From Cymbomonas tetramitiformis (Eukaryota; Chlorophyta; Pyramimonadophyceae; Pyramimonadales; Pyramimonadaceae), in assembly GCA_001247695.2 (NCBI GenBank), contig LGRX02013910.1:1-64000 (forward strand): DNA of 64,000 nucleotides, in the 5' to 3' direction. Both the position numbers and the translations under genes were made by a program. Below the pieces are notes generated by a model, which saw only the letters and a program-made list of their open reading frames with translations, searched no databases and was not told the DNA's origin. Below are positions 1,468 to 47,925 of the stretch, one piece after another. The stretch's first letter is position 1, and each line of letters starts with the position of its first letter.

Positions 1468-2882
1468 CCAGTGCACAGAGTGCCCCTGGATTCACACCGT
1501 TCTGAACAAGAAGAAGGGTGTGACGCGTGTGACCAGCGTGACAGGCGTTGATGGACCAAGGTCAAAGTGACAAAGAGTCCCCAGCACCGTCCCTTGTGGG
1601 GATGCGAAGCGAATGCCCAAGCTCTCCACCACCAACCAGGCTCAGACACCCAGCCACAATAAGCCAAGTCAAACTAGCGTGCTGAGCACACTCTGGCTGC
1701 AGTGGTCGCTCGTCACAGTTCAGCTGCAAGAACGCAATAAGTATGCCTTGATACTCCAAATCAGCGGTGAATGCAGGATATCCGTACAAAAGGGTCTGAG
1801 GCTAAGCCAGTGTGCTGAGCACCCCTGGATTCGCGAAGCCACTGCTCATCAGGAGCACAGAAGTTGTCATAAGAGCTCGTTGCTAGCCAAGATACCAGGA
1901 GTAAAAGTCACTACGCAGACAGAGCTCAAGCTAAGCCAGTGTGCTGAGCACCCCTGGATTCGCGAAGCCACTGCTCATCAAGAGCACAACAGTTGTCATA
2001 AGAGCTCGTTGCTAGCCAAGATAACCAGGAGTAAAAGTCACTATGCAGAGCTCAAGCTAAGCCAGTGTGCTGAGCACCCCTGGATTCGCGAAGCCACTGC
2101 TCATCAAGAGCACAACAGTTGTCATAAAGGCTCGTTGCTAACCAAGATAACCAGGAGTAAAAGTCACTATGCAGAGCTCAAGCTAAGCCAGTGTGCTGAG
2201 CACCCCTGGATTCGCGAAGCCACTGCTCAGCAAGAAGGTGAAAGGTATCATAAGTGCCTCACCGCAAGCCAAAAGTTGCCAAGAGCCGTAAGAGGACAGA
2301 GAAAGTGTCAAACGCTATTCCACAGGTGTTTCCAAGATAACCAGCGGCGTTCTAAGCTGAGCCAGTGTACAGAGTACCCCTGGATTCACTAGACACCGTT
2401 GCCAGAGCAGTCCTTGCTGTGTACATAATATGTAAAGTTGACTCACTCGCTGCCTTCCAGGCTGATGCCGCTGCTAATTACCTTCTAGTGACACACCTGC
2501 TTAGAGCTAGGCCAGTACACCGTGGGTGTCCCTGGATTCACTGTCAGACAAGGTGGCCAAGCTAGAGGAACCGCAGGATAAGAAACCACTCATTAGGATA
2601 GTAATTAGCTGCTGATTCGCTGTCGCCGCCGCTGTCCAGGCTGATGCCGCTGCTAATTACCTTCTAGTGACACACCTGCTTAAAGTTAGGCCAGTACACC
2701 ATGGGTGTCCCTGGATTCACTGTCAGACAAGGTGGCCAGGCTAAAGGTAACGCAAGATAAGGAACCGCTCATTAAGATAACTGCTGATTCGCTGTCACCA
2801 CCACCAGGAGCCTTTTCCGTGTAGGCACCGCCAAATATAAAAAAGGAAAAAGGGTGCGCCAGTACAACGAGGGTGTCCCTGG
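1468..2882 (-). repeat. Leader of gag element copy 1: nine copies of a covarying hairpin
   Basis: Nine hairpins start at CCAG and end at CTGG: 1468-1489, 1807-1828, 1936-1957, 2062-2083, 2188-2209, 2362-2383, 2512-2535, 2691-2714 and 2859-2882. The outer CCAG/CTGG arms are constant and the inner stem changes in pairs: GCAC/GTGC, GTGC/GCAC, GTAC/GTAC, ACACC/GGTGT. Each is followed by GATTC(A/G)C or a near variant. They lie upstream of gag on the minus strand, so they would be in the 5' leader RNA. Confidence 0.8.
1801..2240. repeat. Tandem repeat, about 126 bp per unit, four units
   Basis: The block beginning GCTAAGCCAG recurs at about 1801, 1930, 2056 and 2182. Each unit also holds small hairpins such as GCTC-atcaa-GAGC and ACAAC-ag-TTGT, so the leader RNA would be a chain of stems. 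Units 2-4 are nearly identical, which indicates recent local expansion. Confidence 0.85.
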
Positions 2883-3319
2883 AGTCGCCAGTCTCCCGAA
2901 TCCGCTGTTCTCAACCGCTGTCTACTTGTCGCCAAAGAGCCTCTCACTTCTGAATTCGTATCGAAAAAAAGGCGCTCCGCGCAGGACATTACTGTTTTGT
3001 AAAAAGATAAAAACAGCAGTATAACATATTCATCAAAAGATCAACAAAATAACCAAAAGTACGAATTATTGTACAAAACTGTGAGCAGATCTGTCTTAGC
3101 AGTCCAGCACTTGGCACGCGAACAGCCACCTAGCACTTGCGAAGGCAAAACAATAATGAGTCCACTAGTCCTGACCTGCGGTCAGAGCTTACTTATTCTC
3201 AAGTCATTGTCACATCTGCAAAAACTGTAACAGGCTTCCGCCCTAAAATCTTCATCTGCCAATAGAATGTCACTATTCTATGCCAGCTTTAATGATGTTA
3301 CCGTTCCCCATCTTCTGAC
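2883..3319 (-). other. Rest of the leader of gag element copy 1
   Basis: No ORF of note. The stretch around 2985-3030 (a TTTTGTAAAA core) resembles 47520-47555 in copy 2. This shows that the leader continues up to the hAT insertion and resumes at 5068. Confidence 0.5.
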
Positions 3320-3665
3320 TAAGGTGGGCAGGTATTAAAAATGGTATAATACCGGTATGGGTAATACCGGTATTTTACCCGGTAATACCAACCCCTGAAA
3401 TCACAATACCTCCCATACTTAAGCTTTTACCGGTATTTTACCACGGTATCCTGGTATTACCATGGTAAAATACCGATTACCCCCTCGATAATACCAGTTT
3501 GGCCATATTTCCGCGGATTCGAAATGAGACACGCAAGTCGGCGGACACCCACCGACCGCCACGCAGTGCTCAGCCTAACCGAAGCTGAAACCCATCCACC
3601 CAAAGGAAAAAATCAGTTTCAAGAGCACGTAAAATAAATTTTTATAGACCGAAATCTACATCAAC

Positions 3666-4468
3666 ATGGCACCCGACTGTGGGGACGCGGATGATCCAGC
3701 AGTCGAAGAATTGTCATGGCCCGATCCGAGTGGGACACGGCACAAAGTTCCAGAGGAAGTCTACAGAGCTCTCCGTGCTCCTTACCGTGGACAAAGTGGC
3801 TTCGGGAAGCAGCACCTTACCCTCCTATCTTTGTTTCACGACACGCCAGAACTTAGGCTCTAGCTCGACGCAGTAAAAACCTGTAAGGTTAACGTTCGTA
3901 CGACGCTCACTTGCAAGCACGATTCTTCTATCAAAACCAACGTCGCTTACGGTCAGATCAACCCGGGCAAGTTTTTGAAGAAAGTAATCGATAGTCCCAA
4001 CGTTCCTGAATAAGAGAAGTTGAAGCTCACGGAATCATCCATTGCAGAAATATGCAAGGAGTGGCGACGCCAATTCTTTGTAAGCGCAAGCAGCAAGAAA
4101 CATCTGACGAGGTTGGTTTGGCTGCTGCTGAGGAGGCAGTTGTCGAAGAGCACGATCCCACAGCTGCCTCACGCCGCGAACGTCAGTCTGTTTTGAAAGA
4201 TTTTGGAATGAGCTCAGTTTCAAGAGCGCAGGCGGCAGCGCTTACTTTCTTGCTTGGCACGTTGTTCTTTGCGTGCCGGATTCCTTTTCACGTGGTCGAC
4301 ACCGTTTTTTTTCGGGCGTTTATAAAAGCCTTATGTCCAGGATATATGGCGTGGCCGCCTTGCAAAAACACGCTTCGCACAACCACCCTTGACAATGTTT
4401 ATGAAGAGGCTCTAAGTTATCACTTGAGGCTAATTTGGACAAGGATAGCTTGGAATTGCAGCGTGTAG
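3666..4468 (+). pseudogene. hAT transposase remnant
   Basis: Two short open stretches, 3666-3863 and 4052-4468, lie in different frames. The second contains the segment conserved in hAT transposases just after the BED finger: a run ending in CRIPFHVVDTVFFRAF, then ALCPGY, then a Pro-rich turn and a leucine-rich helix. Residues 60-110 of that stretch carry the match. The first stretch could be a degraded N-terminal region. The catalytic RNase-H-like core and the C-terminal dimerisation domain are absent, so this copy could not make active transposase. Confidence 0.65.
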
Positions 4469-4539
4469 GCGCTTGGGCATATGTGCGCAAGGTTGATTGA
4501 AGTGAATACACATACTAGCCTTATTTTCGGTATTATTTT

Positions 4540-4770
4540 CTCATGTCATTACGATATCTGATATGACGTCTGTTGTGATTAATAATGATATTTGCGGTGA
4601 GTAATGATATCTGCTGTGATGAATAATGATATCTGCTGTGATTAATAATGATATCGGTTGTGATTAATAATGATATCTGCGGTGAGTAATGATATCTGTT
4701 GTGATGAATAATAATATCTGTTGTGATTAATAATGATATCTGCGGTGAGTAATAACATCTCCGCGCCCCG
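4540..4770. repeat. Minisatellite, about 22-bp unit
   Basis: The word TAATGATATCTG followed by (C/T)(T/G)GTGA recurs about nine times inside the small hAT. Interstitial GATATC sites make each unit partly palindromic. Confidence 0.85.
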
Positions 4771-5067
4771 CGCCTAATAAATATTCCAAAATTCTGCTGC
4801 TGCTGTCGGTTCCGGATTCATGCCACCTCTTTTGAGCGCGATAGTGGTATATATCTTCCACTATAACCCACCAAACATCATGCGGGTGAGCCGTGGCTAC
4901 ATGGGGAGCTATCTATAGTCGATATCTGATGGCGTAAATGAATATTGGCTCATGCCTTGCTGACGGTATAACTTTGGTAATACCACCGAAAGTAATACCG
5001 GTATTATACCCGGTATTACCACACCCTAGTTTCAAAATACCGGTATTATGCCCACCTTACTTCTGAC

Positions 5068-5275
5068 TGACACGTCAGTGGCAACATTGTAACTGTCATA
5101 TCTTCTTATCACTTCGCGTTCATCTGACAGTGACCATATCTTCTTCACCAAGTCTGTTACTCTCGAGCAGTCATCCCGCGCGAGGTCTGTCACACTCGCC
5201 ATAACTGTCACGCCTGTCACTAGCTGTACAAACCCGGCTCCGGTACCATGAGAAGCCGGCGTTTGTTACACTGGG
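5068..5275 (-). other. Distal leader of gag element copy 1, beyond the hAT
   Basis: Around 5229-5272 a block (AACCCGG, then GGTAC, then AAGCC, then GTTTGT) matches 47880-47920 of copy 2 in order and spacing. This marks the shared outer part of the gag element. The LINE starts immediately after it. Confidence 0.55.
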
Positions 5276-8200
5276 TTTAATTAAAGCCGTCCTCACGACC
5301 CGAATATTTCCGGATCAGCTTATGCGAGGAGTGATTGTTCCACTCTTTAAGAAAGGAGATAGTAGGGACCTGGGGAACTACAGAGGTATCACCTTGCTTC
5401 CTATCATCTATAAGCTCATCACTAAGATCATCAACAACCGGATGCCGTCCATGATATCCGATGCCGACGGCATCACGCACGCGCAAGCCTCAGGCAGAGC
5501 AAACTTTAACTGCCTCACTCAAGTAAACGTTTTCAATAACGTGGTGAAACACGCTCAACGAACGGGCAAGTCATTATTTGTCTTATCGACTGACGTAAGA
5601 AAAGCTTTTGACACAGTGGACTTTGGGGCGTTTATCAACTCGCTGCGATCGCATGGGCTTCGACGAGAACGTTATGGACTTAATCCATAACCTACAAACG
5701 GGTTTCGAATGCACAGTGAGATCCCCAGTGGGCTACACAGAACTCTTTCCGATTGAGCAAGGGTGTAAACAAGGGTGCGCGTTGTCCCCCTTGAGGTTTA
5801 ATATGGTTTATGACATTTTCCTCAAATATATCGAACACTCCAGCAAGGGTTACAAATGGGAGATGAACTACGTGATAATCCAGAAGGCACAAGAGAACAC
5901 GAACGGAAGGGGCACCACCCTTAACATCCCGGGTTGTGCATTCGCCGACGACAACCTCATCATCAGTGACAACCCGGAGGAATTCGTGGACATGGTGAAC
6001 TCGTTCTCAACTTTCCTGCAAATGGTGGGCCTTCACCTTAGCCCATCAAAGTGCCGCTACACGTCATACTTGCCCTATGAAGGGACTCCCCCGGAAGTTC
6101 GGATCAGAGACCATACGGGGGCCGTATGCTTAGTCCCACATCGGCCAAACTCAGTCCCCCTGGAATATTTGGGGTACCTCATCACGGTTGGAGATGCAAG
6201 CCCCGCAGAAACATGGAAACACCACAATATGAAAGTGTACAGGGAGATAAACAAGGCCATGGAGCAGTTCTCCAAGGGAAGCTTTAGGCAGACGGAACCA
6301 GTACGCATTCTAAATTCTGACGTGCTTAGTATTCTCCAATATTTCTTTGCTGCTAACTGGATGGCCAAGAGAAAAGTGCCAAGATCTGGAGACGGCGAAG
6401 CAGATGACACCACACTCGCAGGGATAGCTCATGAAATTTGGCTTTTGGTGAGCAAGAAACTTAGTTGCATGTTGAACACCCCAAGGGCAGCCGTTTTTAA
6501 CAAATCCACGGGATTAGGGTTCGGGGAAGACAATGTTGAGGCGATCTACTACACCGCCAAACTCGACAACTTGCTGCAGGCATTACATTCACCGAGCAAC
6601 TACTACTCCCTCACCACAATTGACACGATAGGGAGCTTGCGAGCGACAACCGGATGGAATGCCCTACGAGGGGGCGTTCATGACAACAAAGAGAACCGCA
6701 TCCCATCAATGAAGAAGTGCAGGCTTTACCCTGAGTACATTAGGGAGGCAGGGGAGGGCCTCCGCAGGAGCTCACATTACATTAACGTAAATCCTCACTG
6801 GTACAAGGGGGCGGATTGCACTCTACTCAATTTTATAGGGTTGCAGACCAAGGGGATAAAGAATAAGCCATCATTGCAGACTTTCCTAGAGGCGCATGGC
6901 CACCTCACGTCGGGGGAGTTGTATGGGAGAGCTGGCCATAGCGGAGGAGTGTTTGCCACGATACTCAACTCCCCGGACATGGGGGGCCTGTCATACTACA
7001 CATCATTCCGTGACATGACACACCTAGGCTTGATTTCTTCGGGAGTGAGCATGGAGGCCCGGACCGAGCGGGAGTTGTCACGGTTGCTTTGGAGCAAAAC
7101 GGAGAGATACCACGGAAAGATGTGGGATAATCCTGCAAACTTCTCGAACACTGGCATTATGACAGGCCGCATGGACCTGTTCTCGTTGGATGAGAGGCAC
7201 ATGGCTACAGATGGGAGTTACGATCCATACACGGGCAGTGCAGTGGTCACAGAGAATGGGACGTATATGAGCTCATCCACACCAGGGGAGAAATCGATAG
7301 CACGGGCAGAGGCATATGGGGTTGTGTCAGCACTGCTGCTACAAAAACCGGATAAGGATCTCATCATATACACCGATTCGCAAAACACCATAGATAACAT
7401 CCGCAAGGTGCAAGTGAAAGCCTGGATGGACCCTAGAATGTGGAGGACCATGAATGGGTACTCCTTGTACAAACTGGCTGCTGAACCGCTGAACAAGAGG
7501 GACCACATGGGGGCCACGACGGATTTGGTCCATGTGAAGGCACACACCGTGAGCAACGAATGGCCGAGCGTTCTGAATTCAAGAGCCGATGAGCAAGCCA
7601 AACAGGCTAGAAGTGGGCCGTGTATCTTCCGAGAACCATACCTATTCTTGCCCAAATACTACGCGGTAGCAGCAGGGGGCGGACGTGATGGCCCCACCGT
7701 CCGTACGGACTACATGCATTCAAGATGGTACCGCGATTGGGACGAGCATCTTATGCAGGCCGCTTGGAGAAAAGCCGGAGACGCGAATCACATCAACTTT
7801 CTAAACAAACCGCAAATTTGGAGGGAGGCCTCTGTGACAAAGGGGGCAATCGGGGATAAAACTAATATTTTTGCGGCTAAACTAGGTGTTGGTAGTCTGC
7901 CGACACCGAGAAACATACAGGTAACAAATGATAAATATTTCCCGGACCTGTACCCAGGGTACTTCTGCCCCCTCCACCCGACAGATGAATCGATCGCGAA
8001 TGAGCACCACATTTTTTGTAAATGCCCAGCCACTGCGAGGATTCGGGAAACCGGACTAGAGGAGTTGTTGGGAAGGATTCAACAAGTGTTACCGGATACG
8101 GTGACTAAATTGCCTATGGAAGCATTGCGACGTATGCTACTCCCGGCCAGGCGGGAGGACTTCTTGTACGGCCGTACCCCGGGAGAACTTCGAGAATGGG

Positions 8201-8310
8201 TGGAGAAGGAACACGGAAGGAGGGTGGCGGAGAAGCTTGGCCGGAAATTGAGGCCGTGGGTCACGGAGTTTTTCTTTAGTGTATGGTGCCAATATAACAA
8301 AAAATGGTAG
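5266..8310 (+). pseudogene. LINE (non-LTR retrotransposon) ORF2: reverse transcriptase, RNase H and C-terminal zinc motif
   Basis: The open frame begins abruptly near 5266 at the junction with the gag element, already inside the reverse transcriptase (PLFKKGDSRDLGNYRGI is the usual RT-0/1 block), so the endonuclease is lost by 5' truncation. A one-base frameshift near 5655 separates this stretch from the 900-residue frame 5608-8310. That frame has the RT active site FADD (about 5940-5952). From 7200 it has an RNase H domain starting ATDGSYDP with a later TDSQNT, HVKAH and SRADEQAK. Near 7965-8030 there is a C-terminal C-x2-H-x9-H-x5-C cluster, as found in many LINE proteins. The presence of RNase H points to the I-like or related clades, but the clade is not resolved. 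One frameshift in otherwise clean coding suggests a fairly recent insertion. Confidence 0.9.
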
Positions 8311-8612
8311 AGGGGGAACACGAGTTCTCGAGCCGTATCCAGAAGCGATATGGGATCTGTGCGGGTGATTTGAGGAGATACGGGAAGAGCGCGCGCCCGA
8401 CTACGATGGGACAGGACCGTACGGTGGAGCCGGAAGAGGGACAGTCGGAGAGGCGAGAGGGAGTTTGTGATCGACTAGATTCGAATCAGGAGGGGGACAC
8501 GGGGGGAGACGTAACCGGTATCTTGACACGGCAGGTGGAAATGGGGAATGCGGACATGCCAACCGAATCTAACCGCACACCACCGCCTCGTATCCATTTT
8601 CAAAATGATTGA
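8304..8612 (+). CDS. Small hydrophilic ORF overlapping the LINE stop codon
   Basis: This 102-residue frame starts at an ATG that overlaps the stop of the LINE ORF in the string ATGGTAG. The product is polar and rich in Arg, Glu and Thr, with no recognised domain. It could be LINE 3' UTR that happens to be open, or a small ORF translated by termination-reinitiation. Sequence similarity cannot be judged here. Confidence 0.25.
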   Translation: MVEGEHEFSSRIQKRYGICAGDLRRYGKSARPTTMGQDRTVEPEEGQSERREGVCDRLDSNQEGDTGGDVTGILTRQVEMGNADMPTESNRTPPPRIHFQND

Positions 8613-8929
8613 AACGCCTTGCAATATCGGAAAACCGAATTTTGAACGTCCTTTGAATATCCTTGTAGAGTCTCAGTACCGCTAAACACCTACTATAGTA
8701 AAACCCGCACGAGGTCATAGGCACATGGGTTCTTGATAGTTACTTACTAGCATATTCATGGATGCATCCGGAGCACCCCCTCTTCTTGGACGTCCCACCC
8801 TCACCCCCGGTTTTCAGAGCACACCCGTTGACTTTGGTATTGCCATGGGCTTACGCCAAACTTTGGTGGGCTTGAGGGGGGTGGGGGAGGGTGTGGCGGT
8901 TGACGGGAGGGGCGTGGGAGCAGGGGGTG
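8613..8929 (+). other. Putative LINE 3' UTR and target region
   Basis: No gene seen. The end of the LINE is not marked by a clear poly-A or target duplication. The last 60 bases are very G-rich and form the target of LTR element A. Confidence 0.4.
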
Positions 8930-9191
8930 TGATGAAAACGGAGATATATATATATGATACTATAACTTATATATATCACGGTCCCCGAACGAACGAAGCT
9001 GGACAGCGGAGATCCCGGAGGTCACAACAAACTAAGATGAGATAATAAAATACTTAGGTTGTTTTATTATCGCAGAGCGAAACGAACACACGGACAATCA
9101 AGATGCAAGTGACACCACAGGGCGAGGGGTGACACAGGAAGAGACAGTCACCCCCAATTTATGGGGGGGGCAAAAGTCTGTCTCCCCGTGA
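8930..9191 (-). repeat. 3' LTR of element A
   Basis: Nearly identical to 10560-10820, including the AT-rich core GATAATAAAATACTTAGG and the end CTCCCCGTGA. Confidence 0.9.
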
Positions 9192-9433
9192 CACCACCTC
9201 ACCCCGAAGGCGTGAGGTGCCACGACGCAAGCTGGCCAAGGCGGTCCTAACATCCTACGGTTGGCCACAAAGGCAAAACCCTAACAAAGCAAGCATCATG
9301 CGAGACCCAAAGGGGCCTTTTTCAACCCAGCTAGCACGGCTACGTCAACGCCGGTCTCAAGATGCATGCTCTAGGGGCTTACGCCCATGCACGTGCTGCG
9401 GGGATGTCTACTCCCGCAGGCCTACAAAGGCTA

Positions 9434-10015
9434 CTAGGCTCCAGCGTGCGAGGGTGGATGGCGCCGGAATCCTCGATCGTGGATGGAGTCGAGCGCCGCT
9501 GGGATGTCGTCAACCAATGCCCACGCGGCGGTGCAGTGCCATGATGCATGACACCACCAGAGCGAGTGCGGGGACGAGGACACCCCGAGGGGGGCGAAGG
9601 TGGAAAATGCGGCGTGTGCCCACTCCGCTGCACACGAGTGCGAAAGCAGAGAGGAGAATCGGTGGGATGGCGGGGTATCGCAGCACCACCATACGCCACC
9701 AGGCAGTGGCCAAGGGGCACGCACCACGCAGGGTGGAGGGGAGAGTGGAGGCCGCTGCGGACGCAACTCGGTGTGGTCAGAGTTCTCGTCATTGGCGAAG
9801 GCGATGGACTCGCGATGTCGGTGTCCGGCGCATAAGCACCACCCGACACCACCAGACCATAGCCAGGGGTAAGATGCTGTCGACGTAGTCGGAGATATGC
9901 CACCATTGAGCGCACAGCGGCCATACGCGCATGCTGACGTGCGGTGGACATGGGTGCAGACCGCAGGCTGCAGAATTCTGCGAGTGAAAGATAGGGTTTC
10001 ATGGCGAAACTCCAA
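9434..10015 (-). CDS. ORF of compact LTR element A, unknown product
   Basis: Several frames are open here because the DNA is GC-rich. This 193-residue frame is preferred because its C-terminal part (around WALVDDIPAALDSIHDRGF) is best preserved in the A-family copy at 38742-39032, where WALDDDVLAALDF is found and length differences are multiples of three. The overlapping 283-residue frame 9379-10230 is less conserved. No domain is recognised. The position between primer-binding site and polypurine-like tract would suit a gag-derived protein, but that is inference only. Confidence 0.35.
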   Translation of the reverse strand: MEFRHETLSFTRRILQPAVCTHVHRTSACAYGRCALNGGISPTTSTASYPWLWSGGVGWCLCAGHRHRESIAFANDENSDHTELRPQRPPLSPPPCVVRAPWPLPGGVWWCCDTPPSHRFSSLLSHSCAAEWAHAAFSTFAPLGVSSSPHSLWWCHASWHCTAAWALVDDIPAALDSIHDRGFRRHPPSHAGA

Positions 10016-10559: not shown

Positions 10560-10820
10560 TGATGAGAACGGAGATATATATATATGATAATATAACTTAT
10601 ATATATCACGGTCCCCGAACGAACGAAGCTGGACAACGGAGATCCCGGAGGTCACAACAAACTAAGATGAGATAATAAAATACTTAGGTTGTTTTATTAT
10701 CGCAGAGCGAAACGAACACACGGACAGTCAAGATGCAAGTGACACCACAGGGCGAGGGGTGACACAGGAAGAGACAGTCACCCCCAATTTATGGGGGGGC
10801 AAAAGTCTGTCTCCCCGTGA
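10560..10820 (-). repeat. 5' LTR of element A
   Basis: Pairs with 8930-9191; only a few differences, so insertion is recent in relative terms. Confidence 0.9.
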
Positions 10821-10825
10821 GGGTG

Positions 10826-30786: not shown

Positions 30787-31450
30787 GCCAAACAGCCGAG
30801 GCTTCCCGTGCGTCCTAGAGCACGAAACTTGGCACGAATACTGCCAAGATACATATATTTAAGTTACTTGAAGCTCAAGGCTTCAAGTTACTTGTGCGCG
30901 AAACGCGCAATTTATTTCTAAGGCGGATGTTTTGGGTTTGGGTTCGAACGTGACACCCAAACCCAAAGATGCCAAACAGCCGAGGGCTTCCCGTGCGTCC
31001 TAACGCACGAAACTTGGCGCGAATACTACCATGGTACATATATTTAAGTTACCAGAAGCTCAAGGCTTCAAGTTACTTGTGCGCGAAACGCGCAATCTAT
31101 TTCTAAGGCAGATGTTTTGGGTTTGGGTTCGAACGTGACACCCAAACCCAAAGATGCCAAACAGCCGAGGGCTTCCCGTGCGTCCTAGAGCACGAAACTT
31201 GGCACACATACTGCCAAGATACATATCTTTGAGTTACTTGAAGCTCAAGGCTTCAAGTTACTTGTGCGCGAAACGCGCAATTTATTTCTAAGGCAGATGT
31301 TTTGGGTTTGGGTTCGAACGTGACACCCAAACCCAAAGATGCCAAACAGCCGAGGGCTTCCCGTGCGTCCTAGAGCACGAAACTTGGCACACATACTGCC
31401 AAGATACATATCTTTGAGTAACTTGAAGCTCAAGGCTTCAAGTTACTTAC
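30787..31450. repeat. Satellite, about 185-bp unit, four copies
   Basis: GCCAAACAGCCGAGG recurs at 30787, 30970, 31156 and 31339. Each unit holds the pair CAAACCCAAA/TTTGGGTTTG and CTTGAAGCTCAAGGCTTCAAG, so units contain palindromes. Unit 2 is the most diverged. The array stops at the assembly gap on the left. Confidence 0.92.
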
Positions 31451-35944: not shown

Positions 35945-37075
35945 ACGTTAGACCCCAAAAAAGCCTGCAACCATGAATACCCCATTTTCGAAGAATGTAT
36001 GCATGAATAACCCAAAAAACAAAATGAATGGGGCAAACCGGTGCCAAATTTTTCGAAGAATGTTTGCAGCAATAACCCAAAAAACAAAATGAATGCCGGG
36101 CAAACCGGTGCTAAATTTTTCGAAGAATGTATGCATGAATAACCTTAAAAACAAAATGAATGGGATAAACCGGTGCTAAATTTTTCGAAGAATGTATGCA
36201 TGAATAACCTAAAAAATAAAATGAATGGGGCAAAACCGTGCTAAATTTTTCGAAGAATGTATGCATGAATAAACCAAAAAATAAAATGTTAAATGGGGCA
36301 AACCGGTGCTAAATTTTTCGAATGTATGCATGAATAACCTTAAAAATAAAAAAGAATGGGGCAAACCGGTGCTAAATTTTCGAAGAATGTATGCATGAAT
36401 AAACCAAAAAATAAAATGAATGGGGCAAACCGGTCCTAAGTTTTTCGAAGAATGTATGCATGAATAACCTTAAAAATAAAAAGGAATTGGGCAAACCGGT
36501 GCTAAATTTTTCGAAGAATGTATGCATGAATAACCTAAAAATATATAATGAATAGGGCAAACCGGTGCTAAATTTTTAGAAGAATGTATGCATGAATAAC
36601 CTTAAAAATGAAAAAGGATGGGAAAAACCGGTGCTAAATTTTTCGAAGAGTGTATGCATGCATAACCTTAAAAAATAAAAAGAACAAGGCAAACCAGATT
36701 ATATTTTTCGAGAAGAATGTATGCATCAATAACCTAAAAATCAAAATGAATGGGGCAAACCGGTGCTAAATTTTTTTCGAAGAATAATGCGCATGAATAA
36801 CCTAAAAAAATAAAAGAATGGGGGCAAAACCGTGCTAAATTTTTCGAAGAATGTATGCATGAATAACCTTAAAAATAAAAAAGAATGGGGCAAACCGGTG
36901 CTATTTTTTCGAAGAATGTATGCATGAATAACCTTAAAAATAAAAAAGAATGAGGGCAAAAACCGGTCCTAAATTTTTCGAAGAATGTATGCATGAATAA
37001 CCTTAAAAATAAAAAGAATGGGGCAAAACCGTGCTAAATTTTTCGAAGAATGTATGCATGAGGATTGCATTCCGC
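35945..37075. repeat. Tandem array, about 66 bp by 17 copies
   Basis: CGAAGAATGTATGCATGAATAA-type words recur from 35987 to 37043 at 60-72-bp spacing. They alternate with GGGGCAAACCGGTGCTAAAT-type words. Length drift between units is mostly in A-runs. The minus-strand ORFs here (36372-36560, 36741-36959) are repeat artefacts. Confidence 0.95.
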
Positions 37076-39412: not shown

Positions 39413-40297
39413 TCACGTCGTACGGTAAGCCAGTTTCCCGGCAGAAGAGCCGCTCCTGGCAATGCAAGTCAGCATCCTCCACCCCCCCTGCATATGGCCC
39501 AAACCTCCTCCTGCCGATATGTAGATCACCAGCGCCAGGACCAACGCCATGTAGGCGTAATGGGTCACCCGGTAGCAAGCGGCCATGAGCCGCAGGCGCT
39601 GCAGACGGGCGGCAAAACGCGGCTTCTGCATGCGGCGCGGGATGGCCGCCAGCGTGGCAGGACCCGCCGCAGAGACTCGCTGCGCGACCGCCAGCGTGTG
39701 GTTCACTCGAGTGCGAAGCGCGGCAAACACAGGATTGTGCGCCAAGCAGAAGCCCGGCAGACCATGCCTCCCAACGTGAACGGCGACCACCAAGATGCCC
39801 CCCAGTGAACCGACTGTGCCCACGAAGCGCATGGCGAGCATGGCAAGCCCAAGCCGAAGCAATGACACATACCATAGCCCGCGCTGGGCATGGTGGAACC
39901 CAGCTACCTCACAGACCACTGCGCCTAGCAACAGCAAGTGCCTCGCTAGCTCCGATAGTACACGAAGATGCAGACGGCGATGCGCCCACTGCTGAAGCGG
40001 CGCGGTACGCACGGCCCACAACGCGCGCGCCATTGCTCTGCGAGGTACACCGGCACGACACATCCAGACTGCTGCCATCTCGCAAAGGCATCTGATCATC
40101 TCCATTGCCATCCATATGACCATCACCGCAAAGTGAGGCAGCTGCGGCCACTGCAAGCGCACGAACACCCCCACGAATAGGAAGCACACCTGAGCGTGCC
40201 CCACCCACCGCCTGGCGGCAGGCTGTGCACCCGGCTGTATGCCGGGGCTGCTTCTCAGTAACGGGTGCGCCGGGCTGCAGCGGGCCCGGCGCCCCAT
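39413..40297 (-). CDS. Putative multi-pass membrane protein of the long gag element
   Basis: A 294-residue frame with at least four hydrophobic segments: VCFLFVGVFV, HFAVMVIWMAMEMI, LLLLGAVVCEVAG and YMALVLALVIYIS. Between them are Arg-rich helices. It lies downstream of the gag-protease ORFs on the same strand, where retroviruses carry env. No signal peptide, furin-like site or known envelope family is recognised, so an env role is speculation. GC-rich DNA opens several overlapping frames here; this one has the most protein-like composition. Confidence 0.4.
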   Translation of the reverse strand: MGRRARCSPAHPLLRSSPGIQPGAQPAARRWVGHAQVCFLFVGVFVRLQWPQLPHFAVMVIWMAMEMIRCLCEMAAVWMCRAGVPRRAMARALWAVRTAPLQQWAHRRLHLRVLSELARHLLLLGAVVCEVAGFHHAQRGLWYVSLLRLGLAMLAMRFVGTVGSLGGILVVAVHVGRHGLPGFCLAHNPVFAALRTRVNHTLAVAQRVSAAGPATLAAIPRRMQKPRFAARLQRLRLMAACYRVTHYAYMALVLALVIYISAGGGLGHMQGGWRMLTCIARSGSSAGKLAYRTT

Positions 40298-41769
40298 TGA
40301 AAAGGCCCCAGTGCGCTATCTTTTCTCCGCTCCTCCCATATTTCGTCGTAACTCAGCTGTGCGTCTGAAGCACGCGGCGCGCTCCTGTCTGCGTGCCCTC
40401 TGCGAGCGGCACCAGGACGCCGGGTCTCCCTCCTGGGGCTCGGTGATCTTCTCCTGCGCTGGCCAGCCCGCGGTGAGCGTTGCTGTGCGAGCCCTGCGGC
40501 CGGGTTCTGCTGGTGCACCTCACGATGGCCGTCACGCTGGACTTCGGCGTTCGAGACGCGACCACAGGGCCGATCTGGGCTGTTGGGCGCTGTGGAGCCA
40601 AGGGTTGGCGATGGCACGACTGATGAGGTGGCCTCCTGGCCCCGTTCAGCTGGAAGCAGAGCATCGTTTTGTCGCGTGCAGACGGAACCTGTCGGTGGCC
40701 TCAAGATGTCGTCGACCGTCTGGTGCTCGGATCGTTGCGCAAAGTTGACCTCCAAGCCCTCGGAATGCAGCCCACCGAGTGCCTGACCAGAGCAGTACTC
40801 CCGTGTAGGTTGCGTTTGTGCGCCATGGCGACTGTCTAGGCTAGGGTTGTCGGAGCCACGCGTGCTAATTCTCGCAGTCGGACGAGTAGTGGGAGGTCGC
40901 GCCTCGTACTCTCTGATGATCTCTGTGCGCACCCTTATCTGTTCCTCAATCGCTGCGATGCTGGCGTCATTCGCCGCGATCTCGGCGCGCACCTGCGCCT
41001 GATCGGCAGCCAAACCAACAAACCTCTCGCTAATTTGCCCCACGTCCTGCTCTTCCGAATAAGAACGCTCCGACTGAGGCGACAGCGTTGCTGCGTAGCG
41101 CGGGCTGGAGCCCAAACCCTCACCAGCTGCGAGGTCGGGTGAGCGCCTCGAGGCGCTGTCAACCTCCTCATCCTCCTCTGCCTGTCTGTGATGGGAATCG
41201 CCATCCTCCACGGCGGGGTCCAAGCAACGCATGAAGTCGTCACACAGCTGCGTGTGTACCTCAGCTCGTCGTGCGTCAGCCAGCAACGCGGGTCCCACAA
41301 GAGATGCAAGCTTAGATAGTGGCTCCCTGTGCATCACGGCCGCCTTGTCCCATGTCACCCAGCTGCAGCGATCGAACTTGCGCGTCCCGGAGGAGAGGTA
41401 CTCCAAGGTGAACACGACCCCGTGGGATCCTCGCGCGCGGTAGTAGCGATGGTCCTCACAGAGGTAGTACACGGCCTTGGAACGGGAGTCGGCTCGCGTC
41501 TTGAGCACATGCAGCGTGCCTTGTTGTGGGCCGTCGACCAAATGGCTCGTGGCTATCCCCATCAGCTGCTCGCTCGTGCCGAGGTGCTCCACATGCATAT
41601 GTATGGTGCCAAGGAGTCCACCAGTGCATGCAGCCCTTCGACTGTCCGCCCAGCGGCAAACACTCACCTCGCTGCCCCACTGCTGCCGAGGAGGAGTATT
41701 TGTGCATCGTTTGCTTGCTAAGTTCGCACGTGTGCAGCCCTTTTCCTCGCTCTGCATAGGGCCTCCCAA
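40255..41769 (-). CDS. Unknown ORF of the long gag element (504 aa)
   Basis: The N-terminal half is ordinary globular-looking sequence (LCEDHRYYRARGSHGVVFTL, FDRCSWVTWDK). The middle is Glu/Gln/Ala-rich with coiled-coil character (QAQVRAEIAANDASIAAIEE). The C-terminal 200 residues are disordered, Arg/Pro/Ser-rich. It overlaps the end of the ORF 41456-42784 in another frame, and the globular half probably continues that protein after a frameshift. No reverse transcriptase or integrase motif is visible. Confidence 0.4.
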   Translation of the reverse strand: MGGPMQSEEKGCTRANLASKRCTNTPPRQQWGSEVSVCRWADSRRAACTGGLLGTIHMHVEHLGTSEQLMGIATSHLVDGPQQGTLHVLKTRADSRSKAVYYLCEDHRYYRARGSHGVVFTLEYLSSGTRKFDRCSWVTWDKAAVMHREPLSKLASLVGPALLADARRAEVHTQLCDDFMRCLDPAVEDGDSHHRQAEEDEEVDSASRRSPDLAAGEGLGSSPRYAATLSPQSERSYSEEQDVGQISERFVGLAADQAQVRAEIAANDASIAAIEEQIRVRTEIIREYEARPPTTRPTARISTRGSDNPSLDSRHGAQTQPTREYCSGQALGGLHSEGLEVNFAQRSEHQTVDDILRPPTGSVCTRQNDALLPAERGQEATSSVVPSPTLGSTAPNSPDRPCGRVSNAEVQRDGHREVHQQNPAAGLAQQRSPRAGQRRRRSPSPRRETRRPGAARRGHADRSAPRASDAQLSYDEIWEERRKDSALGPFQWGAGPAAARRTRY

Positions 41770-42784
41770 GCTGGAACTCGATCTTGCCCTTGAAGCACCG
41801 GTACTGGACGAGGAAAACCGTCTGCCCGTCCAGTGCCGCGAACTCTGAGATCTTCCTTGGGTTCAGCCAGTCGGACTCTCGAGCGGTGTCTTCGCTGTTG
41901 GTGCCCGACTCCGGTTCGTAAATGCCCTGGAACACCGATGGGTGATAATCCAGCTTCTGAGGGTCAAAAGCCCCGTTGGGCCAGGTCTGATGCCTCAGGC
42001 GCAGCGGCTCCGAGGATGGCGGCGGCGCGGAACCAGATGGCCCTGCCCCATCCTTTCTGACAGTCTTGAGTGTGCGGACTGGCGGCCCTGGTGGCGGGTC
42101 TCGCCTAGTCCCGTAGGTAGCCAGCGCGTCATGTGCTTTCTCCTCAGTCTTGCATGCAGCGAGCATCACTCTGCCGTCCCCCAAGTGTAGGTACTCCACG
42201 GCGGCGGCGTTCGTGCTGAACACCTCACCGTCTCCCCCTTCTCCATCAGTCACCGGGTAGAACTTTCCCACTTTGCAAGCTGCATCTGACAGCGTAAGCA
42301 GCGGGATGGCCCGCACACCAGCTACCACCTCATCGTACCTCACCTTAAGGCGAGCTCGGAGGTCAGAGATGTCAACTTTCTGCACGTACTTCAGGTGTTG
42401 GTATCGCCAGCGCTGGTCCTTCTCATAGTAGAAGGGCAGCTGGAATTCGCCAGTCACCTTCCCCATGGGGCTCATGCTGGCAGTGCCAGCCATGGTGTGA
42501 CGTACCATGTTCTCCATGAGCTCCCACTGGACGCGAGTCTGCTCACTGAGCACGCAGAACTGACGTGCCATCTTGTCCCACATAAGTTTGCCAGTTACGA
42601 CTCCCGTGGGGTACACCTGCTGGGCGTTGAGTGCCTCCTGAACGTTTGCCATGGTGTATCGCCCAGCTTCTCGATGGGCACCACAGTCAGGAAGCGCGAC
42701 CTGATCGCTGTCCTTCCTGTAACTCGCCCGCGTGGCCCAGGTCTCTGAGGGTACCTTCGTCTCCTTGTCAACCTTCTGGTCCAC
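41456..42784 (-). CDS. Unknown ORF of the long gag element (442 aa)
   Basis: Lies directly downstream of the protease ORF on the minus strand. It contains QLPFYYEKDQRWRYQHLKYV and DISDLRARLKVRYDEVVAG near residues 110-155, and VFLVQYRCFKGKIEFQLG near residue 335. These do not match retroviral polymerase, RNase H or integrase. The last 90 residues are low-complexity and probably read past a frameshift. It occupies the place where pol would be expected. Confidence 0.45.
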   Translation of the reverse strand: MDQKVDKETKVPSETWATRASYRKDSDQVALPDCGAHREAGRYTMANVQEALNAQQVYPTGVVTGKLMWDKMARQFCVLSEQTRVQWELMENMVRHTMAGTASMSPMGKVTGEFQLPFYYEKDQRWRYQHLKYVQKVDISDLRARLKVRYDEVVAGVRAIPLLTLSDAACKVGKFYPVTDGEGGDGEVFSTNAAAVEYLHLGDGRVMLAACKTEEKAHDALATYGTRRDPPPGPPVRTLKTVRKDGAGPSGSAPPPSSEPLRLRHQTWPNGAFDPQKLDYHPSVFQGIYEPESGTNSEDTARESDWLNPRKISEFAALDGQTVFLVQYRCFKGKIEFQLGRPYAERGKGLHTCELSKQTMHKYSSSAAVGQRGECLPLGGQSKGCMHWWTPWHHTYACGAPRHERAADGDSHEPFGRRPTTRHAACAQDASRLPFQGRVLPL

Positions 42785-42799
42785 CAGCGTGAAGTCGGG

Positions 42800-44470
42800 T
42801 CACAGCAGCTCCGTCTCCAGGATGCTCTTCCATTCCCCACAGCGTGGGAACTTGACCTGCACGAATCCTGCGTCTGGTTCGCCTCCATCGTCATCTTCAC
42901 AGAGTGTGCACAATCGAGCGTAGCCAGTGCGATCGACGTACAGGCGCTGCTGAGACCAGCTGCTCTCCTTGTCCCGATGGTCCCAAGGGTTCACTGCCAT
43001 GCCCGCCCACGGTTGCGCACTGGCCAACATGTACTCAGTTTCACTTCCAGCCTCTTGCTCCTGCGTGAGGTCTGGATAGCGAGGGTCGGTCTGGGTTGCA
43101 GTCAGACTGGCTGGCGTGACGGGCACCACATCGACTGGCTCTCCAGCGCCGGACCACTCGTTCCTGGTCGCCACGTTGGCTTCCCGCTGACTGCGTGATG
43201 TCGCTTGCAGCAGGCCCAACATCTGGCCCGTTATGGACGTACCGGACGCAGGTGGTTTGAACGTTGAGTTCTCGGCGTGCAGGCTGACCCGTCCAGTGAG
43301 CTCTACTCGCATAAGCGAGCTGGGTCGCAAGATGCCCGCTTCCACCATGGACTGGCAGCGTGCCTCGAGCATCTCCCTCTCCTCCTGGTTGAACCTTTTC
43401 AGTCTGAGCTCTTCTAGAAATGATGCCAGGAGGTCAACCAGCTCGGGGTGATCTCGTGAGAATGCACATGGTCCAGGTGCACACCTTTCCCCTGTGAGGG
43501 CCAGACGGTCCTCTCCAGGAAGCACAGCCTCGCGTGGAGGTGGAGCACAGTCATCAAAGACAGAGACAAGAGAGCGCTCTGGCGCGGCACCGTCGTCGAA
43601 GATCTCAGTTGCCAAGCACACCCTGGGGTCTTCGTTCCGTTTGCTCCTCGCGTCAGCAGGCGGCGTCAACTCGATCAACGGCAGTGTGACCTTCTCCCTC
43701 ATGCCCAGTGACACCGCGGCCTCAGAGGTGGCGATGCCCCGGTAGAGGTCGATGGTCAGCTTGAGCGCGTTCTTCAGGGGTCCCGTGCCCACCAGGAAGT
43801 CCCACGTGGTGTCGTTGGTGTACGTGACGAAGGCGTGGAGCCTATGCAGAGTCATGTACGGGGTGCCCGCGGCGAGGATCACGTCCACGTAGCAGTACTT
43901 GGTGAACTCCGCGGGGCTGCCGTCGCACCTGGCCACTCTGGCCCCTGTCTCCGCATCAAAGATGGTCAGACCGAGCCGGTCGACCGTCCTTATGGGGATG
44001 ATGTTGCAGTTGGCCCCGGTGTCTAGAAGCAGGGCCTTGTACAACATGAGCAACCCACCAGAGGCCACGAGAGCCATCCCTTGCGCCAGCGTCTCGTTTA
44101 GGAGCTTGCACACGGGCTGGACCTGTGCCATGGCAGTGAGCTGCTCTTCCGTAAGGCCACTGAGCATCCTCTTCTTCAACAACTCGTAGGCTTTGGCCTC
44201 CATGGTCCCAGCGTGTAGCTCGCCCTTCCCACTGAAGTCCGTCACCCCGAAGCTCTCCTGGACTGTGGCTGCTGCAGCGGTGACACGCACAGTAGCTCTC
44301 CTCTTCCTGGGTTGGTCCACCATGTCCTCCGGCATCTCGTCCAGGGGGATCTCTTCTTCATCGCTGTCATCACCCGACTCCATTCCTGGGCAGTCATCGT
44401 CTTCGTCGCTGTCATCACCAGACTCCATTCCTGGGCAGTCGTCGCCTTCGTCATCATCACCATCAGCCAC
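42800..44470 (-). CDS. Retropepsin-like aspartic protease ORF with a reverse-transcriptase stub
   Basis: Residues 1-50 are an acidic duplicated stretch (CPGMESGDDSDE twice). Near residue 150 comes LLLDTGANCNIIP, the retropepsin active site, and later WDFLVGTG, like the second conserved turn of these proteases. Near residues 370-400 the sequence MLEARCQSMVEAGILRPSS resembles the start of a retroelement reverse transcriptase (a helix leading to GIIRPS), but no palm motif follows, so pol is cut short. The start is a non-ATG codon overlapping the stop of the preceding linker ORF, so expression by frameshifting is likely. Confidence 0.7.
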   Translation of the reverse strand: MADGDDDEGDDCPGMESGDDSDEDDDCPGMESGDDSDEEEIPLDEMPEDMVDQPRKRRATVRVTAAAATVQESFGVTDFSGKGELHAGTMEAKAYELLKKRMLSGLTEEQLTAMAQVQPVCKLLNETLAQGMALVASGGLLMLYKALLLDTGANCNIIPIRTVDRLGLTIFDAETGARVARCDGSPAEFTKYCYVDVILAAGTPYMTLHRLHAFVTYTNDTTWDFLVGTGPLKNALKLTIDLYRGIATSEAAVSLGMREKVTLPLIELTPPADARSKRNEDPRVCLATEIFDDGAAPERSLVSVFDDCAPPPREAVLPGEDRLALTGERCAPGPCAFSRDHPELVDLLASFLEELRLKRFNQEEREMLEARCQSMVEAGILRPSSLMRVELTGRVSLHAENSTFKPPASGTSITGQMLGLLQATSRSQREANVATRNEWSGAGEPVDVVPVTPASLTATQTDPRYPDLTQEQEAGSETEYMLASAQPWAGMAVNPWDHRDKESSWSQQRLYVDRTGYARLCTLCEDDDGGEPDAGFVQVKFPRCGEWKSILETELL

Positions 44471-44963
44471 TCACACCCATCCAGCCCATCACACCTTCGC
44501 CACTGCTCTGACAGTCTGCTGCTAAGGCTGCTGGCATGGGGAGCTGACCGGTCTCAGCTAGCTCCACCAAAGTCTCCAAACCCCTGGGGGCTGTTATCCT
44601 GCCCTCCGCTACGAGCCCAGCAGCCAGCTTTCGGAAAGCCGCGCCCAGGCTCTTGATCACGGAGGCCATGAGCTGCACCTTCCTCTGCATCTCGTCCGCT
44701 GCTGGCGCCATGGGCACCTGCGCATCAGCCTCGTACTCCTCGGGTGTCTTCACTGGGAATCCCCTCATGTGTTGAGTACTACCCAGCGCTACCGCTGGTG
44801 CTGCTGTGAACTCGGGCTCACCGCCCTTGCCCAGTGTCTCGGGGAGTTCCCCTAAGCCCACGGTGTTGAGTGCGCTCGAACACCTCCTCGCCCATCTCTT
44901 CAGCCAGTGCTGAGAGCAAGCTGGTTGGAGAGCCAGATGACGCTCCTGTTCCTGTGATGTCAC
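44463..44963 (-). CDS. Linker ORF between gag and protease
   Basis: A 166-residue frame overlapping the 3' end of gag (44818-46509) and ending 8 bp inside the protease ORF. The product has a predicted helical middle (MQRKVQLMASVIKSLGAAF). It is probably the gag-to-protease part of one polyprotein read through frameshifts. No domain is recognised. Confidence 0.4.
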   Translation of the reverse strand: MTSQEQERHLALQPACSQHWLKRWARRCSSALNTVGLGELPETLGKGGEPEFTAAPAVALGSTQHMRGFPVKTPEEYEADAQVPMAPAADEMQRKVQLMASVIKSLGAAFRKLAAGLVAEGRITAPRGLETLVELAETGQLPMPAALAADCQSSGEGVMGWMGVSG

Positions 44964-46850
44964 GGTGGTCCACCTCGTGCGCGTCAGAGATGTATGTCTC
45001 CCTTTCCGCGACGTTCGCTGCGGCCGGCTCCTCGTCGGATCCTTCGTCCTCGGAGAGCACCTGCGACTTCACGCTGCCAGCACGACTGGCAGTCTTTCGG
45101 GCAGCCACCATGCCTTGGTACTCAGCCTTCAGTGCTTCTGGGTTGCTGGCTGTGCTCTTCTGTTTGTCCGCTGGTGACTGCTTAGCACGGTACTTGTCCT
45201 TCTCGTCGTTGGGCAGCTGCTGCCAGTCTGTCACCAGGATGCCCCAGTCGGAGCTCTTGAAACGGTTCTTCAAGTTGTACATCCGCAGAGCGGCGTTCTC
45301 CGCATCCCACCACTTGCTGGACCCCAGCCTGCTCTCGTGGTACCCCGCTGGCATCTTGACATGCTTGTAGCCACTTCTGCACTGCTCGGGATCAGACTCG
45401 TGCCAGCCTCCTCCGAAGCAGCGTAGACACTTGGGCTTGTCATTGGTGCGACCGCCCTCTGCCGGTGGCGGCGTCTTGTTGTACGCAGGCTTCTTGGTTC
45501 TCTCGGCGACGTTCACCTCCTTCTTCATCTTTTTGGAAGGCGACGCATCCACCTTCTTGCTGTTCTCCGGGTCGCCTGACTGCCCTTCCCCGGCTGACTC
45601 TATCTTCTTCATCGAGTTTTTGATTGCCTTGAGGTCAAGGCCGTGCTGTCGGGCCTCCCAGGTGGAGTACTGGCAGCCACATCGCCTAGTAATCTCCTGC
45701 AGGAGGGTGAGGATCCAGGACTCCGCATCGTTCTTGAGCTTGTCCTGCACCTCGATGATGGCCTCCAGGTCCTTCCAGGTCACCCGATTGGGCGGCGGGA
45801 ACTGTGCCCTCAGCTGCTCCTTCACCCGCGTCTGGAAGATCTTGATGCGAAGGTTCTCCACGCAGTCCTCGATGAAGGTGCGCAGCTCCTCGTCGCTCAG
45901 CACCTTCCCGGTGTTGAGCTGCATCTCCCTGCGTTGACACATTTTCATGTATGTTAGACCATCTTGCCCCAGTTCTTGTGGCTTCTGGGTCAACAGATCA
46001 ACTTTCTCTTGCGTTCCCTTCATCATGAACTTCTTGTCAAGGGCAGCAATAAAGCCCCTGAGTGCGTAGAAGTACTGCATGTCACGGGTGCCATTTTGTC
46101 CCGTCAACCCTTTCAGCGAAGTCCCATCGGTCAGATACTCGGTGGAAACCTCTCCTTGGGCGTCTTGGTCTGTCGCTGGTCTCGCTATCACCCACGTAGT
46201 ACCAACATTCATTTCATTGAAGGGGGGCCTAGCACATGGGATAGAACCCTCAAGTGGGCCATGTTCACTGGTGTCCTTGAGGACCCTGTCCATGTTCGAG
46301 GCCACTACACCCCCGCTCTCATAGTTCTCACGCCACCAACTGAGGCTTTGTGAGTTCTCACCCGCTAGACATGCGGGGACGATATCCCACAAGGTTTCCC
46401 AGTCAGGAGGTGTCTCTCTCAGGGCTTTGATTTGCGCTTCGGTGAGATTAGCGCTCGCCACGGACCTGAGCTTCCTCCTGACTGATGTTGGCGTTGTGTT
46501 GGCGTACAAAGTTCTCGCACATGAGGGAGAATTCCCTCAAAAACTTGGGCCGGTCTTCCTCCTTGGTGCCCGTATATATAGGCAGCGTACCAAGGGCAAG
46601 GCGAGTGGAGTCACTGTACTCCATCTCCTCCTCAAATATCACTACAGGCTCTTGGGCTTGAACCTGAGGCTGAACTGGAGCTTGAGCCTGAGGCTGAACT
46701 AAGGCTTGGACCTCAGGCTGGCCTCTGGCAGCCGCTTCCTCTTCTTCCAGCTCTGTGAAGTGCTGGCTCACCCGTACCGCTCTCTGGGTACGTCTCTCTG
46801 CTCTTTGCTGTTTCTGGTGATCAGTGTTCGACTCCGTTGCTACTTTCCCG
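44818..46850 (-). pseudogene. Gag-like protein, copy 2, one frameshift
   Basis: The N-terminal part (46850 to about 46490) is Gln/Glu-rich with repeated PQAQAPVQPQ-type units, then FLREFSLMCENFVRQ. A one-base shift near 46490 leads into the 563-residue frame 44818-46509. That frame shares the whole gag core with copy 1 (WDIVPACLAGE, PPFNEM, KFMMKGTQEK, VTWKDLEAIIEVQDKLKNDAE). At about residue 365 it has a zinc-knuckle-like CLRCFGGGWHESDPEQC. A Lys/Ser-rich tail follows. This would be the particle protein of the element; the zinc motif would bind its RNA. Confidence 0.75.
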
Positions 46851-47925
46851 GTAGTGAGAAGGTCCCAATGTGAAGGCTCTTTTCACTCCGCACTTCCAAG
46901 CTTACTTACCAGTACGGATACATCCGTCCCTGGCCTCACCTTTCAGTGCTTCGCTCTAAGTAGCAGTCACTGTAAGGATACAGTATTCTCACTCATAAAT
47001 TACGTGTCGAGTCTCGCAGGTAACTTGATTCCTGTCTTCCTCCACTTCTTCCAGATAGCCAGCACGGTTGATTTCACTCTCAGTGCAACTGGTCAGTGTT
47101 GTGCCTCAGCAGAATGCCAGAATGGGTCAGAATGCCGCAATGAACGCTGCCGTAATGATAAACACTGACAATCCCGTTTCGCTCTACGCCTTCAGGCGTA
47201 CCAGTACGGATAAATCCGTCCCTGGCTTTACCGTCCGGTGCTTTGCTCCAGCAGGATGCCATTTCCCAGAATAGTCCAGAATAACATTCTCAACGCTGTA
47301 ACCATAATGAACAATGAGCCCCCGGTTTCGCTCTAATTGTTGTCGCTGTGCCTTGCAAGGCTGCTAAACTTGGAGTGCCACAACAGTCTGTTTCCCTCAA
47401 CCTCTTCCAAGCTTACCATTACGGATGAATCCGTCCCTGGCCTCACCCTTCGGAAGCCTTGTTCTTCAGGACTGCTGTTACGCTCTCAGAATTACAGACG
47501 ACATGTCTGTAATAAGGCACATTTTTGTTTTGTAAAAGACTGTAAATCACAGTTCTGACGCCATCACACAAGAACAAGTTCAACAAATGTATGTCTTCAC
47601 AAGCAAAAGAATGCCATATATCATAAATCCTTATATCATAACACTGCTGTTTTCGCGGTCTGAGCGAGTACTTCCTATTTTCGGAATCGCTGTTACGAAG
47701 GCAAAACAAAAATGAGCGTCTGCCTCACCCTGCTATGCCGCCCTACTTATTCTCGCTATCTCTAAACAAGTGTAACACCCATCCGTATTTCCGTATCTCG
47801 TCACTGTCACAACTCCTCGCGCGTATCGTACTGCGCGTGTCATACGTTTGTCACAGAGACTGCTACAGCAAGTGTCACAACCCGGTTAAGGTACACGATA
47901 AGCCGTGGTTTGTGACATTCTGCTG
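46851..47925 (-). repeat. Leader of gag element copy 2 with three covarying hairpins
   Basis: Hairpins at 46909-46933, 47201-47225 and 47416-47440 have CCAG (or CCAT) and CTGG arms and the inner stem ACGGAT/ATCCGT (one variant ACGGAT-aa-ATCCGT), followed by C(C/T)TCACC-like sequence. The outer block 47880-47920 matches 5229-5272 of copy 1. The hairpins occupy the same place relative to gag as in copy 1 but with a different stem sequence. Confidence 0.75.

Follow-up and report, generated by a model that had tools for sequence, protein, structure and literature searches.

Tandem hairpins with covarying inner stems in the gag leaders of long terminal repeat retroelements of the green alga Cymbomonas tetramitiformis, a candidate Gag-binding RNA array

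Why would a retroelement carry, in the leader of its gag gene, a row of short hairpins whose outer arms stay constant while the inner stems differ from copy to copy and still pair? The question is raised by a stretch of 64,000 nucleotides (nt) from the phagotrophic marine green alga Cymbomonas tetramitiformis (assembly GCA_001247695.2, contig LGRX02013910.1, positions 1 to 64,000; the whole stretch is hereafter called the window), in which two diverged long terminal repeat (LTR) retroelements, elements A and B, both lie on the minus strand. An original prediction, made from the letters of the window, had placed twelve such hairpins in the two leaders and had taken them for a selected structure that recurs in tandem ahead of gag. 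This reading is upheld here by covariation across genomic copies, most of which keep their stems, and on the comparisons described below we consider selection on the hairpin well supported. For the array as a whole we propose, at roughly even chances, a multivalent cis-acting RNA signal, that is, a platform for Gag binding in packaging and dimerisation; the RNA reading, the Gag binding and the packaging role are all inferred.

Scanning the window with a descriptor of the form CCAGGG-stem-loop-stem-ACTGG (at most one arm mismatch, three or more Watson-Crick pairs in the inner stem) recovered exactly twelve hairpins, at 12 of the 12 predicted sites, all on the minus strand and with none on the plus strand. 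Six dinucleotide shuffles of one strand gave no descriptor match (stems of at least 4 pairs, at most one arm mismatch), and a loose pattern of the arms has 11 matches in the window against 0.30 expected, a number that none of 100 shuffles gets to; the site at 47416 is absent from these matches because of its altered arm. The positions were therefore right as predicted, but the hairpin in the RNA sense is the reverse complement of the one originally written, both gag genes being on the minus strand. Read in the gag sense, each site is CCAG-GG-stem-loop-stem-A-CTGG. The outer arms CCAG and CTGG are constant, as had been claimed, and so is a 2x1 internal loop, GG opposite A, which had gone unnamed. 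The hairpins of element A (type A) additionally have constant flanks, mostly GAAT and CYTA. The copies in the window are the following:

1468..1489, minus strand: hairpin nearest gag, element A, inner stem GCAC/GTGC (descriptor scan)
1674..1696, minus strand: degenerate 13th copy, inner GTGC/GCAC retained, arms changed
1807..1828, minus strand: hairpin, element A, GTGC/GCAC
1936..1957, minus strand: hairpin, element A, GTGC/GCAC
2062..2083, minus strand: hairpin, element A, GTGC/GCAC
2188..2209, minus strand: hairpin, element A, GTGC/GCAC
2362..2383, minus strand: hairpin, element A, GTAC/GTAC
2512..2535, minus strand: hairpin, element A, ACACC/GGTGT, in the free fold the tip of a long imperfect stem
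2691..2714, minus strand: hairpin, element A, ACACC/GGTGT, in the free fold the tip of a long imperfect stem
2859..2882, minus strand: hairpin nearest the primer site, element A, one mismatch in the inner stem
46909..46933, minus strand: hairpin, element B, ACGGA/TCCGT, 4-nt loop
47201..47225, minus strand: hairpin, element B, ACGGA/TCCGT
47416..47440, minus strand: hairpin, element B, a single arm base altered

When the twelve copies are aligned, inner pairs 1 to 4 each vary on both sides and 97.9% of the cells pair, a share that drops to 13-43% in slid registers. None of 500 column shuffles matches the observed number of paired cells, of double-change cells or the covariation score, although 135 of the 500 do reach the observed number of pairs with a double change. 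The array contains tandem units of 126 and 179 base pairs (bp), and it is duplication of the 126-bp unit that accounts for the four GTGC copies, so that the twelve copies represent fewer independent events. The predicted count holds for its twelve sites and lacked the degenerate copy at about 1674-1696. The weakness foreseen at 2859 is the single inner mismatch listed above. The type B stem, predicted as ACGGAT/ATCCGT, does pair, but it folds as five base pairs and a 4-nt loop rather than as a six-pair stem, the would-be sixth pair being mismatched in some copies among the type B matches listed. In Rfam, none of 4227 families had a match at gathering score anywhere in the window.

The genome holds the hairpin in thousands of copies. 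A type A pattern with a free interior, GAATCCAGGG-N9..18-ACTGGC, has 2974 + 3244 = 6,218 matches and its reversed control 0 + 0, and a type B pattern has 918 + 1015 = 1,933 matches against 8 + 17 for the control. Among 100 type A matches listed (of 6,218), 91 show four or more Watson-Crick inner pairs (93 if G.U is allowed). The same depth of pairing is seen in 2 of the 90 distinct matches that occur by chance in viral contigs, and in 0 of 116 listed for prokaryote genomes. It is this figure of 91 in 100 that is free of bias, the first loci having been retrieved with a pattern that largely fixed the palindromic interior. Both null sets had been considered in their own right: the 110 IMG/VR stretches matching the arms pattern were rejected as relatives, those inspected being chance matches (for instance, a collagen-like phage gene in stretch L044), and the prokaryote-genome stretches (at least 116) likewise served as a chance null only. 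The type B pattern has no match in IMG/VR, a search of IMG/VR with the gag alignment returned no relatives, and a protein search with the plus-strand open reading frame (ORF) spanning the array returned no match. The scan, the shuffles and the pairing counts of genome versus null together rule out a chance origin of the hairpins.

The leaders are orderly. Forty-three of 49 carry 6-9 exact-arm hairpins and each of three type B leaders carries 3, one of these three having an additional fourth with an arm mismatch. Type A leaders share a similar copy order, with spacings mostly of 125-183 nt, and copies on both strands occur in 0 of 46 loci. The inner stems seen include GTGC/GCAC, GCAC/GTGC, GTAC/GTAC, ACAC/GTGT, ACACC/GGTGT and GCACC/GGTGC, with ACGGA/TCCGT in type B, and one divergent leader (L278) has five distinct inner stems, all paired. 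The common interior lengths are 11, 13 and 14 nt, with pairing retained. Loci L232 and L234, which overlap L231 and L233, were dropped from the counts, and identical 60-nt contexts were collapsed (from 340 to 271); gag position and spacing were analysed in the 45 loci that have four or more exact copies, and conservation in the 44 leaders that have six or more.

In the 271 distinct contexts, from 46 genome loci, the inner cells (counted for interiors of 11 or 13 nt only) comprise 1164 Watson-Crick pairs, 13 G.U, 7 A.C and 1 other, so that 1164 of 1185 are Watson-Crick; a loss of pairing in most copies, the outcome that would have spoken against the prediction, is not what the genome contains. 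The covariation check over many genomic copies that had been suggested was run with a purpose-built null, in which a tree was built from 70 flanking columns of 281 copies (interiors of 11, 13 or 14 nt) and an equal number of changes was dropped randomly on its branches; this tree is based on short flanks and has poor resolution at depth. Pairs 1, 2 and 3 exceed the null, the observed value being attained in 1, 0 and 0 of 2000 simulations, and double changes on one branch number 6, 3, 4 and 1 for pairs 1 to 4. Conservation agrees: mean column identity over the 44 aligned leaders is 0.978 in the arms with GG and A, 0.963 in the stems, 0.881 in the loops and 0.785 elsewhere, with some bias possible in these values, the columns having been marked by hairpin finding. 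Arm changes in otherwise paired copies fall in 33 of 53 cases on the two G positions of the internal loop.

These figures bear directly on the simplest alternative, in which the hairpins all come from one ancestor by tandem duplication and have no function. The 126-bp and 179-bp units are what such a history would leave behind. It does not, however, account for arms and stems that are more conserved than the remaining leader, nor for the double changes that recur along the tree (6, 3 and 4 on the same branch for pairs 1-3), and a tandem repeat without selection is accordingly disfavoured by tree covariation and conservation; we regard it as extremely unlikely.

Three observations temper the case for a selected hairpin. 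Pair 4 is not above the tree null (1200 of 2000 simulations attain the observed value); the element B stem is nearly invariant among 100 matches listed (of 1,933); and the fifth position of 11-nt interiors, although part of the 3-nt loop, remains T-A in 118 of 130, so that the loop letters are not free there, which may reflect shared descent or a constraint on the loop. In the 13-nt interiors (n=133), positions 1-5 are paired in 128-133 copies and position 6 in 1. On balance, the comparison of copies argues strongly that the inner stem is retained for its pairing and not for its letters.

Whether the paired form acts as RNA or as DNA is a harder question. In a DNA-level explanation, a protein of the host or of the element would recognise the palindromic sites in duplex form, and the sites would act as a downstream enhancer or an insulator comparable to the Su(Hw) array of gypsy. 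The Drosophila gypsy insulator consists of 12 degenerate Su(Hw) sites lying in a part of the retroelement that is transcribed but not translated (PMC7800606), a close likeness to the algal array in number and in place. Palindromic repeat boxes are also found in Sirevirus LTRs. Wobble counts and folding also weigh against our proposal. The G.U to A.C ratio of 13:7 is not a significant wobble bias (p 0.26) and gives no proof of an RNA reading; G.U at pair 1 of 13-nt interiors occurs in 14 cases genome-wide, and at the same pair in the fetched loci there are 2 G.U versus 0 A.C, of 75. Sense and antisense fold about equally, with a modest mean folding z of -0.72 in sense and -0.45 in antisense (160 segments), the sense energy being lower in 109 of 160 segments and the sense z in 92 of 160. 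With the pairing span held to 40 nt, the mean hairpin probability is 0.22 in sense and 0.27 in antisense (181 copies), and four classes reach a mean of only 0.17-0.47 with 60-nt flanks. Moreover, 7 of the 12 window copies mispair in whole-leader sense folds.

Gag-side segments (n=80) have mean z values of 0.14 and 0.48, versus -0.72 and -0.45 in the hairpin segments. Classes of at least 4 copies have mean hairpin probabilities in sense of 0.82-1.00 when the flanks are 20 nt long and of 0.17-1.00 when they are 60 nt long. Folded freely between flanks of 40 nt, the hairpins at 2512, 2691, 46909 and 47201 form, that at 47416 forms with 3 of 4 outer pairs, and those at 1468, 1807-2188, 2362 and 2859 do not. 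Since the folding energy is modest, we argue the structure from evolution and not from energy, which is weak as proof and was not relied on. In folds that force the hairpin to form, several classes have flanks that pair better than shuffled ones (mean z of -3.3, -3.8 and -5.6 in three larger classes), while in the largest class, GTGC (z -1.1), and in GCACCCACGGTGC (z -1.1) flank pairing is not clearly above shuffled. These modelled basal stems are a lead only; a swapped-flank control is not a clean null, many copies sharing a class.

What speaks against duplex recognition is the pattern of change itself. Su(Hw) binds duplex DNA through zinc fingers, at sites that follow a consensus sequence, whereas in the algal copies the inner letters vary and the pairing is kept, which argues against an insulator of that type. 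The differing common interior lengths (11, 13 and 14 nt), with pairing kept, suit a hairpin better than a rigid DNA dyad; moreover, the asymmetric GG/A offsets the arms, and in 13-nt interiors the symmetry ends at the 3-nt loop. With these points on both sides, we consider DNA-level binding, the chief rival of our proposal, to be unlikely.

For an RNA signal, the array would have to be transcribed, and the layout of the elements suggests that it is. Judging from the LTR and primer arrangement, the hairpin copies sit in a transcribed leader, between the primer site and gag. The relevant features are:

2987..2999, minus strand: element A primer site of the helix, 13 bp with 3146-3158, one G.U
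3146..3158, minus strand: element A R-region partner, pairs with 2987..2999
47520..47532, minus strand: element B primer site of the helix, 13 bp, all Watson-Crick
47702..47714, minus strand: element B R-region partner, pairs with 47520..47532
47531..47917, minus strand: element B 5' LTR, bounds estimated by eye, using the TGT...ACA termini together with the primer site

The helix joins 13 nt of the R region with 13 nt at the inferred end of the LTR and precedes the hairpin array; between elements A and B, one of its pairs is changed on both sides. Among the 48 genome loci that extend at least 500 nt upstream, 35 contain both 13-mers, 33 of them perfectly complementary, with a median distance of 277 nt from R to the first hairpin; on the other side of the ledger, one or both are missing in 13 of the 48. 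The element A leader extends to about 2986, and no second copy of the element B LTR was found in the window. The arrangement of R and primer site is the self-priming layout of the Tf1/Sushi type, in which, as in Tcn1, the start of the transcript is complementary to the primer site; self-priming itself is a prediction for the algal elements. Kinship with Tf1, Sushi or Tcn1 is not established, because no reverse transcriptase (RT) belonging to these algal elements was found. We know of no comparable hairpin array in Tf1. In the available portion of a plant survey of chromoviruses, self-priming is predicted for Tcn1 only (PMC6317226).

Gag follows the array with regularity: in 43 of 45 loci it is encoded downstream of the hairpins and on their strand (no gag match in the other 2), and the last hairpin is 103-108 nt from it in 34 of the 43. 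The coding features of the two elements are:

76..1364, minus strand: element A gag, split between two ORFs that overlap (786-1364, 76-894), from ORFs and gag comparison
44818..46509, minus strand: element B gag ORF, 563 amino acids (aa), its N-terminal part upstream in another frame by comparison with the relative P0001
42800..44470, minus strand: element B aspartic-protease-like ORF, Pfam matches below cut-off

The two gag products are 54% identical over 235 aa, and the 26 gag relatives listed, from the best 7994 candidates scored, are all CYMTET proteins. Element B gag contains a CX2CX5HX6C stretch, which we take to be a zinc-knuckle variant. A structural model of Gag (mean predicted local distance difference test score 54) has PNMA2 and MOAP1 as its top Foldseek matches and the C-terminal domain of HIV capsid (CA-CTD) lower, all weak (best E 0.67), and a profile search of solved structures gave two weak unrelated matches. 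Pfam found no RT in the four main element B ORFs scanned, with weak protease matches only, nor did it find one in any of 10 Cymbomonas relatives, of which nine came from a search with the protease ORF and the tenth was the gag relative P0001; one of the 10 (P0045) has an RNase H of the RT type. The element B lineage may be a non-autonomous gag-protease family.

Based on this arrangement, we propose that, once the leader is transcribed, each copy would fold into a stem-loop in the stretch that separates the primer site from gag, with a recognised surface made up of the constant CCAG/CTGG helix and the GG/A internal loop (plus the flanks in type A). The mostly 6-9 type A copies could then act as a multivalent binding platform for the Gag protein of the element itself. 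This Gag, with its capsid-like domain and zinc-knuckle-like motif, would select the genomic RNA for particle assembly and would probably also dimerise it. A multivalent RNA signal bound by protein would be expected to show such a place and orientation, so many copies, and an asymmetric surface that stays constant while the stem varies. More tentatively, and with some doubt on our part, the ordered row of mostly 6-9 position-specific hairpins with several inner stems, each recognised by Gag, might nucleate capsid assembly cooperatively on one RNA.

Two other RNA roles deserve weighing at this point. The array might serve translation, as an internal ribosome entry site or a ribosome shunt for gag behind a leader of about 1.5 kb; such length, the near-constant distance from the last hairpin to gag in 34 of 43 loci and the upstream ATGs (12.4 observed versus a dinucleotide expectation of 20.5 in 41 leaders, still numerous) would fit this role. 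Many near-equal tandem copies with one constant surface are nevertheless better suited to multivalent protein binding, an argument rather than a test, and we rate a translation element as quite unlikely. Alternatively, near-palindromic tips could pair between two RNAs and dimerise them with no recognition by Gag, as the nearly self-complementary GTGC-type and type B tips would allow; loops that differ between copies do not suit this, and the constant arms and GG/A would be left unexplained, so that dimerisation alone appears very unlikely.

Returning to the proposed Gag-binding array, its place near the primer region and gag is one where the leader RNAs of retroviruses and of Ty1 and Ty3 have their cis-acting packaging and dimerisation signals; the algal element differs from these in iterating one hairpin type, mostly 6-9 times in type A, with constant arms and covarying inner stems. 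Among the titles listed by literature searches none concerned such a hairpin array, in agreement with the original supposition, and the Cymbomonas genome papers, in the parts available, treat LTR elements in general. A partial precedent does exist in the RM boxes of Sireviruses, palindromes that number at least 8 per element and have a common core and a variable symmetric part. They occur within the LTRs, on the upstream side of the TATA box, and in linkers that precede env, and the authors suggest transcriptional roles for them (PMC2829016). They are the nearest repeated-palindrome precedent found, and differ in location, the algal copies standing after the primer site and before gag. If the proposal is right, the leader would hold an iterated packaging array, unlike the few dissimilar stem-loops of retroviral leaders, present in thousands of copies in a green-algal genome, with which multivalent Gag-RNA assembly could be studied beyond animals and yeasts. 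A constant surface with swapped stems over thousands of copies amounts to natural mutagenesis, and with so many natural variants the candidate recognition element is readable and directly testable. The primer helix, in turn, points to self-priming in a green-algal element.

Some further observations concern the surroundings of the two elements. Region 40255-44470 (minus strand) of element B contains, besides the protease-like ORF, two further long ORFs without a Pfam RT match. A likely insertion in the LTR region of element A, at 3343-5052, has GGTATAATACCGGTAT-like inverted repeats near its ends. A neighbouring ORF at 49751-52747 (minus strand) has protease, RT, RNase H and integrase matches in Ty3/gypsy order, and at 5608-8310 (plus strand) there is a 900-aa ORF with RT and RNase H, non-LTR-like by eye. 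Arrays of units of about 20 bp with TTCAGGGCCTGAA-like palindromes occupy 62411-62969, and two other tandem arrays were seen, at 35985-37061 (65-bp unit, about 16 copies) and at 30787-31448 (185-bp unit, about 3.6 copies).

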